Source of the DNA: Actinomycetota bacterium
GTDB lineage: Bacteria; Actinomycetota; Actinomycetes; Nanopelagicales; Nanopelagicaceae
Direction of reading: 5' to 3'
Assembly: GCA_005787575.1 (NCBI GenBank)
Contig: SYAN01000030.1
Location: 1-43,471, forward strand
Length of the DNA stretch: 43,471 bases
A program made the translations under genes and the position numbers. Below the pieces are notes generated by a model that saw only the letters and a list, made by a program, of their open reading frames with translations, had not been told where the DNA came from and searched no databases. Numbering within the stretch: position 1 is the stretch's first letter; the number at the start of each line of letters is the position of its first letter. Positions 2,237-3,957 of the stretch are shown piece by piece.

Positions 2237-2251
2237 GTAAACAATGTTAAC
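2237..2251. promoter_or_regulatory. Putative TetR operator, imperfect palindrome GTAAACAATGTTAAC
   Basis: Arms GTAAACA / TGTTAAC with one mismatch, in the divergent MMPL-tetR gap and overlapping the tetR ATG (2244) and the predicted leaderless TSS. Confidence 0.5.
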
Positions 2252-2855
2252 ACCTCTTCGCAAGGGCTCGGACTACCATCATGGTGACCTTCGTGATGCT
2301 GTGATCCAAGTTGCCCGAGATCTGGTAGCAAACGAAGGTGTGAGTTCGCTCGGGATAAGAAGAGTCGCACTTCGAGTCAATGTGACCCCAGCCGCGCTCT
2401 ACAGACACTTTGAGAGTCTTGAGCAGCTACGAGGTGAAGTCTCGGGTCGGGTCAGAAATGAGATGGCCGAGATGATGATTCTTGCCAGAGAGAAAGTCGG
2501 GCCCGCCACATTAAGTAAGACTCGTTCACGGGCGCGATTTTCTGCAATAGGAGATGCATACGTCGCGTATGCTCGAAAGTTCCCTAGACTTTTTGAGATC
2601 GCCTTCCTCACCTGTGATGCATTGCCTGAGACCGAAGAGAGCCTTGCTTGGCGCACGCTTGAGGAATCTCTCGAAGAGTTAATCAACTCTGGTTTGTTGG
2701 AGCGAAGAAAGAGTTTGAAAGCTGCCACTTTGGCATGGAGTTCTATCCATGGATTGGCCTCACTCGTTGCGTCTCAGACCATTTCCAATAAGGAGTATCC
2801 ACTTTTTCGAAAGTCTGTACTTGATGGTGTACAAGATGCAGTCTTCGCTCGGTGA
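2244..2855 (+). CDS. TetR/AcrR family transcriptional regulator
   Basis: N-terminal HTH: DLRDAVIQVARDLVANEGVSSLGIRRVALRVNVTPAALYRHFES; divergent from MMPL exporter. Confidence 0.93.
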   Translation: MLTPLRKGSDYHHGDLRDAVIQVARDLVANEGVSSLGIRRVALRVNVTPAALYRHFESLEQLRGEVSGRVRNEMAEMMILAREKVGPATLSKTRSRARFSAIGDAYVAYARKFPRLFEIAFLTCDALPETEESLAWRTLEESLEELINSGLLERRKSLKAATLAWSSIHGLASLVASQTISNKEYPLFRKSVLDGVQDAVFAR

Positions 2856-2913
2856 TTCTTAAACTGAAGAGTCATATAAGAGAAATTCTCAGTATCTTGG
2901 GGATAATCCGAGC

Positions 2914-3024
2914 ATGAGTGAGATTCTGCCAAGCATCACCTCCGATGAGATTGACCTCGAAAATGATGATTCAAAAAGAGAAGAGGAAATCAAGGGAGAC
3001 AGACCACCTCATCACGAGGGATAA
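2914..3024 (+). CDS. Small acidic protein, 36 aa (MSEILPSITSDEIDLENDDSKREEEIKGDRPPHHEG), not in supplied ORF track
   Basis: Complete ATG-TAA ORF; GATAAT-N6-ATG just upstream, the same leaderless-type spacing as neighbouring copC; composition resembles small actinobacterial proteins with a C-terminal RPPHH/W motif (from memory). Confidence 0.6.
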   Translation: MSEILPSITSDEIDLENDDSKREEEIKGDRPPHHEG

Positions 3025-3028
3025 GTTT

Positions 3029-3334
3029 CTAGTTTGAAGTGGTTGTGCTTGATGAAGGAGTAGTCGTTGGTGTCGTCGAAGTTGAGGCGTTTGACGCTGG
3101 AGTAGCAGGGGCGTTGGCCGTTGAAGTGGATGAAGAAGTGGTTGAGTCGCTCTTTGCAGTACGAGAATCGGTTTTGTAGAAACCCGACCCTTTGAAAACT
3201 ACTCCCACACTGTTATAGATCTTTCGCACTGGTCCTTGGCAGAGCGGACAATCTTTGATTGCTTCATCTGAGAATGCCTGAACCAACTCAAACTCATGAG
3301 CACAACTGGTGCAGAGATATTGGTAGGTAGGCAT
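3029..3334 (-). CDS. FmdB-family zinc ribbon protein with Ser/Thr/Ala low-complexity tail
   Basis: MPTYQYLCTSCAHEFELVQAFSDEAIKDCPLCQGPVRKIYNSVGVVFKGSGFYKTD with two CxxC pairs. Confidence 0.92.
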   Translation of the reverse strand: MPTYQYLCTSCAHEFELVQAFSDEAIKDCPLCQGPVRKIYNSVGVVFKGSGFYKTDSRTAKSDSTTSSSTSTANAPATPASNASTSTTPTTTPSSSTTTSN

Positions 3335-3423
3335 GAGCAGATTCTAGGAAAGTGATAAGAATCTGACTAATCGAAGGTGTTGCCAGCGTAGGCAACTTCA
3401 TCAACTAGGGCGATAATCAGCGC

Positions 3424-3957
3424 ATGAGATGGAAGTCAGCAATCACTACCTTGATACTCAGCTTAGGGATTGTGACAACTGGAATCTCGGTTGCTCAAGG
3501 CGTGGAGATTCTCACCACCTCGCCAGGAGTCGATGCGAAGGTGACTATCACTCCGAATTTCGTCACGGTCACGGCCGATCAAGATCTTCTTGATTTCGGA
3601 AACCAGCTCCCAGTCATCTCACCTTCGAACACAAGAGTTGATGATGGTTTGATAACGGTATCGGGTGCAACACTCTCAGTAGGTCTAAATCAGTTGACTG
3701 AGTCCGGAGATTACTTGGTTGAGTATGAAATCCTGGTGGAGAATGAGAGCCCGCTATTTGGGAATTTCTCCTTCACTTTTGAAGCACCTCCTGTGGTTCA
3801 ACCAAATACGCCAAGTCCTTCACCCTCGACGTCGGATCAAGGCAGAGAAGTCGGAAGTTCCACCACTGACTACCTCGTCATCGCTTTACTTGTATTCGCA
3901 TTCTTTGTGTTGCTTTGGCTTGCTCGATTCGCTCGTTCTACCTTTCGCAAGAAGTAG
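3424..3957 (+). CDS. CopC-domain protein, signal peptide and C-terminal TM helix
   Basis: Signal peptide, immunoglobulin-like CopC-type region (TTSPGVDAKVTITPNFVTVTADQDL), C-terminal anchor, next to CopD/CtaG protein. Confidence 0.75.
   Translation: MRWKSAITTLILSLGIVTTGISVAQGVEILTTSPGVDAKVTITPNFVTVTADQDLLDFGNQLPVISPSNTRVDDGLITVSGATLSVGLNQLTESGDYLVEYEILVENESPLFGNFSFTFEAPPVVQPNTPSPSPSTSDQGREVGSSTTDYLVIALLVFAFFVLLWLARFARSTFRKK

Follow-up and report, generated by a model that had tools for sequence, protein, structure and literature searches.

Between the tetR and fmdB genes of this actinomycete contig, 173 nt separate the tetR stop (2855) from the end of fmdB, and this gap is filled by one short open reading frame (ORF). 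Is this ORF a real gene, and if so, what could its product do? Here, the window is the whole 43,471-nt stretch of DNA that was analysed. The first-pass annotation had pointed to an unlisted ORF of 36 aa at this place, and its coordinates and translation agree with ours: the ATG is at 2914, the TAA at 3022–3024, and the forward-strand translation of 2914–3024 is MSEILPSITSDEIDLENDDSKREEEIKGDRPPHHEG, which ends in PPHHEG. The features are collected in Table 1.

Table 1. Features of the small gene and its neighbours in the window
Feature	Position	Strand	Remarks
TetR regulator, upstream neighbour	2244–2855	+	missing at the same spot in many relatives
Predicted -10 promoter hexamer GATAAT	2902–2907	+	6 nt (CCGAGC) ahead of the ATG
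Small protein gene, 36 aa and TAA stop	2914–3024	+	sequence, conservation, coding evidence
N-terminal motif LPSITSDE, residues 5–12	2926–2949	+	class-wide LPxxTxDE; P6 and D11 nearly invariant
Predicted short helix, residues 19–28, ahead of PP	2968–2997	+	structure prediction
C-terminal motif PPHH	3004–3015	+	class-wide PPH invariant; fourth position H, W or Y
FmdB-type zinc-ribbon protein (TIGR02605)	3029–3334	-	convergent, 4 nt from the small gene's stop

Conservation in the window's family

From its gene content, the window's family looks like the streamlined freshwater Nanopelagicales. Searching with the single protein (E<=1), we found relatives in 34 of the 37 family genomes, its own genome counted, with 83% identity for the closest one; the closest relatives of the 36-aa query, which belong to the same genus, reach E=5e-16. 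The profile A1, built from 26 members that all come from the window's family, detects the small gene in 144 of the 151 family genomes; among those with >=90% completeness and <=5% contamination the count is 81 of 84. In the A1 alignment, R22, P31, P32, H33 and H34 are invariant and the indels are whole codons. By sequence comparison, the conservation of the small ORF in this family is far above chance. Loss of the frame or frameshifts in relatives had been named as the outcome that would speak against a gene; instead, the frame is kept in these 144 genomes and in most of the class. In one genome of the family (L222:1511-1928; G180:C1:148041-148424), the small gene is duplicated in tandem, the two copies being identical and spaced by 270 bp.

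Distribution across the class Actinomycetes

The family-only A1 profile also matches other families, with E values down to 1e-10. A wider profile built from distant members (A2) has matches at E<=0.01 in 267 of 297 class genomes. A sample of the phylum gave matches in 58 of 60 class genomes (E<=0.05) and in none of the 337 genomes from other classes (E<=1e-3), the split into 60 and 337 being a hand count from the match listing. On inspection, the best match outside the class (E=1.6e-3; the candidate inspected was L132, G441) is not a member. About 10% of class genomes show no profile match, and many of them are mostly large genomes of one family (f18), in which the gene may have been lost or may have strongly diverged.

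The carriers include tiny bacteria of freshwater type as well as Streptomyces and Mycobacterium. A scan of Mycobacteriaceae gave at least 80 loci, and described species of Mycolicibacterium, Mycolicibacter and Mycobacterium account for many of them; Mycobacterium tuberculosis lies outside the best 80 of these loci, from which nothing follows for that species. A tblastn search of plasmid and phage records gave no match to the small protein, so the gene does not look mobile. These profile searches show a protein family of about 34–75 aa to be nearly universal in the class.

Members follow a common plan, which consists of LPxxTxDE, often GWGE, an acidic helix-prone stretch, PPHH, PPHW or PPHY, and a few last residues. 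PPH is invariant in the A2 and A4 alignments, and this conserved end always lies a few residues from the C-terminus. Presumed Streptomyces members read ...DQQSSDDTDRGWGERP...FLDEKPPHH(L/I/F), and members from other families end in ERPPHW. The first-pass annotation had likened the ORF to small unnamed proteins of Streptomyces and relatives that end in RPPHH or RPPHW and had proposed a profile search of actinobacterial genomes; that search finds the family class-wide and bears out the kinship. The unnamed RPPHH/RPPHW proteins of Streptomyces and other actinomycetes belong to the same family by profile, by the order of the motifs and, often, by a tail-to-tail position with mscL. Streptomyces and Mycobacterium members differ from the window's version in their N-terminal extensions, and those of many families in the GWGE insert, whereas the window's version is minimal.

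Coding evidence and natural fusions

Synonymous and nonsynonymous rates, another check that had been suggested, were compared by the Nei-Gojobori method, and synonymous change exceeds nonsynonymous change. L001/L003, the nearest informative pair that includes the window gene, gives a pS of 0.37 against a pN of 0.11; for the nearest Mycobacterium pairs, pS is 0.04–0.22 and pN 0–0.08. The pooled ratio over 1,995 Mycobacterium pairs is 0.45, where pairs are not independent and the distant ones are saturated and uninformative. The PPHH motif is encoded with all four proline codons and with both codons for histidine.

The strongest coding evidence for the small gene is natural fusion. At two loci (L215 and L216), a class III aminotransferase ends, in frame, in the small-protein domain, and the last 70 codons contain no ATG, GTG or TTG except within the final residues of the motif itself; with no internal start, the domain must be translated as the tail of the aminotransferase. 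The same arrangement is present at L092 and L225, all four loci come from one family, and the homologous L092 protein is a class III aminotransferase by Pfam (PF00202, E=4e-74). At L221, L223 and L224, from two families, the open frame continues into a very large protein of helicase/nuclease type, and these fusions are less certain because internal start codons are present; a relative of the helicase-like protein at L127 has Pfam matches under curated cut-offs. The two unrelated carriers suggest that the element acts as an autonomous tail, which would need a free C-terminus and a cytosolic setting. Compared across relatives, the substitution pattern and the fusions show that 2914–3024 is a real protein-coding gene under purifying selection.

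Promoter and predicted leaderless start

The GATAAT hexamer ahead of the small gene and its spacing, which the first-pass annotation had likened to those of copC, are both confirmed: copC has GATAAT at 3412–3417 and its ATG at 3424, with 6 nt between them as in the small gene. Given this copC arrangement, leaderless starts may be common in the window's genome. The 20 nt directly upstream of the window's small gene contain nothing that resembles AGGAG.

A good -10 hexamer ending 6–7 nt before the start is found in 12 of 23 family members, against 1.1 expected from shuffled upstream sequences, which never gave more than 8 such hexamers in 5,000 trials; the hexamer weights and the cut-off were set after several sequences had been viewed, and the effect size is more reliable than the exact probability. 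In presumed Streptomyces, TACCCT, TACGCT or TACTCT stands exactly 6 nt before the ATG at all seven loci (7 of 7). As this geometry recurs in the family and in presumed Streptomyces, leaderless expression looks like an old trait. The prediction of a leaderless gene fits these members but does not extend to all: L006, L017 and L019 have Shine-Dalgarno-like stretches and look leadered. For mycobacteria, leaderless transcripts and small proteins have been described as common (PMC4633059). The upstream regions show in part that the small gene is usually an autonomous transcription unit; the promoter of its own and the start of a leaderless mRNA are predicted from the letters.

Gene neighbourhood

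In the window's family the order is MMPL(-), sometimes tetR(+), the small gene(+), fmdB(-), and usually copC(+) and ctaG/copD(+), and fmdB adjoins the small gene in every family locus compared (30 loci). Many relatives have no tetR here, so the small gene is not bound to it. Across the class, many families have the small gene tail-to-tail with mscL, as part of a block of mscL, a SAF-domain gene, in some cases a methylthioadenosine-phosphorylase-like gene (mtnP), and fmdB. The genes upstream are mprB-pepD-moaB2 in Mycobacteriaceae and a large helicase-like, LCP-like, epimerase-like or CBS-domain gene in other families; several of these neighbour names come from reading the translations, not from database matches. 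Four loci have neither mscL nor fmdB nearby: at L073 and L078 the small gene lies between Rv2466c-like and rpiB-like genes, beside pepN, and at L076 and L087 it lies near a terpene-synthase-like gene.

The mscL gene (PF01741) is present in most other class genomes and absent from 34 of the 37 family genomes, including that of the window; within the family it occurs only in three genomes of genus g7. With mscL mostly lost and the small gene kept, the function of the latter is independent of MscL. The function of the small gene is therefore tied to no single neighbour.

Library searches and closest known systems

Pfam and NCBIfam assign no family to the window protein or to any of the 26 family members, and 38 wider members gave only stray weak matches (best E 0.087). 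Sequence and profile searches of the PDB returned nothing credible, and two matches to photosystem II D2 (E=2.6) are chance. A literature text search for PPHH/PPHW tail strings found no paper, and none was found that brings together any three of small ORF, mscL, moaB2, Rv0985c and leaderless. The small-protein family is unmodelled in Pfam and NCBIfam and has no PDB relative, and its absence from the libraries is probably due to its small size. FmdB, the zinc-ribbon protein whose gene belongs to the same class-wide block but runs on the other strand, has no sequence relation to the small protein.

Among known small proteins of actinobacteria, Pup, the prokaryotic ubiquitin-like protein, is acidic and disordered, about 64 aa long, and ends in GGE or GGQ, with a C-terminus that matters. 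The window's protein family shares this small, acidic and, by prediction, disordered character, but its members are about 34–75 aa and end in PPH[HWY] plus a few residues; with PPHHEG at the C-terminus here rather than Gly-Gly-Glu/Gln, identity with Pup is rejected. A second small protein to compare is CrsL (MSMEG_5890 / Rv3489), a disordered protein of 5.7 kDa which turns helical when bound to CarD and also binds RNA polymerase (RNAP) (PMC12709188). Its gene is located directly upstream of otsA, and its conserved part covers residues 20–45 (PMC12709188). Both proteins are small, actinobacterial and widely conserved, and the mode of CrsL, disordered when free and folding on its partner, is the one we propose for the window's family. 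Unlike the otsA-linked crsL, the gene of the Mycobacterium member has moaB2 on one side and mscL or mspA-type porin genes on the other, and the text on CrsL makes no mention of a PPHH tail (PMC12709188), so that the two are set apart by locus and description rather than by sequence alignment. Identity with CrsL is rejected on the different locus.

Proposed mode of action and rival explanations

Structure prediction gives one helix at residues 19–28 (mean pLDDT 75, pTM 0.24) and no globular fold. The small protein would be cytosolic and largely disordered on its own. Its short acidic helix, ending in the PPH[H/W/Y] tail, and LPxxTxDE as a second anchor may dock in grooves of a conserved core protein of actinomycetes, the putative partner. 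Docking would then modulate this partner, by analogy with the small partner-folding regulator CrsL acting on CarD. Disorder and docking are what the composition, the conservation pattern and the low-confidence model point to. The two motifs, the variable acidic linker, the missing fold, the class-wide spread, the independence of neighbours and the tolerance of fusion together fit a linear-motif ligand. We hold with moderate confidence that this unmodelled, near-universal family, usually with a leaderless-type promoter of its own, is a disordered linear-motif ligand of a conserved core protein other than MscL. A more tentative proposal is that the family is an undescribed core regulator of Actinomycetes: a minimal disordered ligand whose LPxxTxDE motif and PPH[H/W/Y] tail would bind a machine that is essential and specific to the class, such as the ribosome, a protease, or RNA polymerase with its accessory factors, and which would still work when fused to unrelated proteins.

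A C-terminal recognition tag or adaptor for proteolysis would account for an element which is essentially a C-terminal tail, is transplanted onto unrelated proteins, and always keeps its conserved end within a few residues of the C-terminus; a protease adaptor or a chaperone would recognise PPH[H/W/Y], and the free protein would compete for or modulate this receptor. We consider this unlikely, since degrons are seldom kept as separate, nearly universal genes, conservation extends to the N-terminal LPxxTxDE anchor, and no link to any protease emerged in this analysis. Unlikelier still is a copper- or zinc-binding peptide that uses the His-His tail and acidic residues. The PPHH with its acidic residues, the neighbouring FmdB zinc ribbon, and copC with the CopD/CtaG gene downstream in the window and most relatives all favour it, but the second histidine is replaced by Trp or Tyr in many lineages, the conserved part has no cysteine, and at the loci read outside the window's family mscL or unrelated genes, and no copper genes, adjoin.

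An accessory role for one particular neighbour, be it MscL, FmdB or the TetR/MMPL pair, seems very unlikely, even though many families have the small gene convergent with mscL, most have it no more than a few kb from fmdB, and tetR/MMPL adjoin it in the window. Being convergent with mscL and fmdB, the small gene cannot share an operon with either; many relatives have no tetR at this place, and L073, L076, L078 and L087 do without a nearby mscL or fmdB. A role as MscL accessory is contradicted by the family itself, in which 34 of 37 genomes lack mscL and nearly all keep the small gene. The chance that there is no protein gene at all, only a spurious ORF, a leader peptide or a conserved RNA element, is negligible: the ORF is indeed very short and the family libraries do not contain it, but amino acids are conserved with synonymous variation, indels are whole codons, and in-frame protein fusions are obligatory. 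A spurious ORF is refuted by the class-wide protein conservation together with the fusions, and a leader peptide is ruled out as the small gene is convergent with the gene downstream in the window.

Meaning for the Actinomycetes

About nine in ten of the sampled Actinomycetes, a class that includes Mycobacterium and Streptomyces, keep the gene, and it is retained even in streamlined genomes of 1.2 Mb, which have few genes to spare; a general role is very likely. Two products follow from the analysis, namely a profile with which members of the family can be annotated, and a peptide with both motifs that can serve directly as bait in model actinomycetes.
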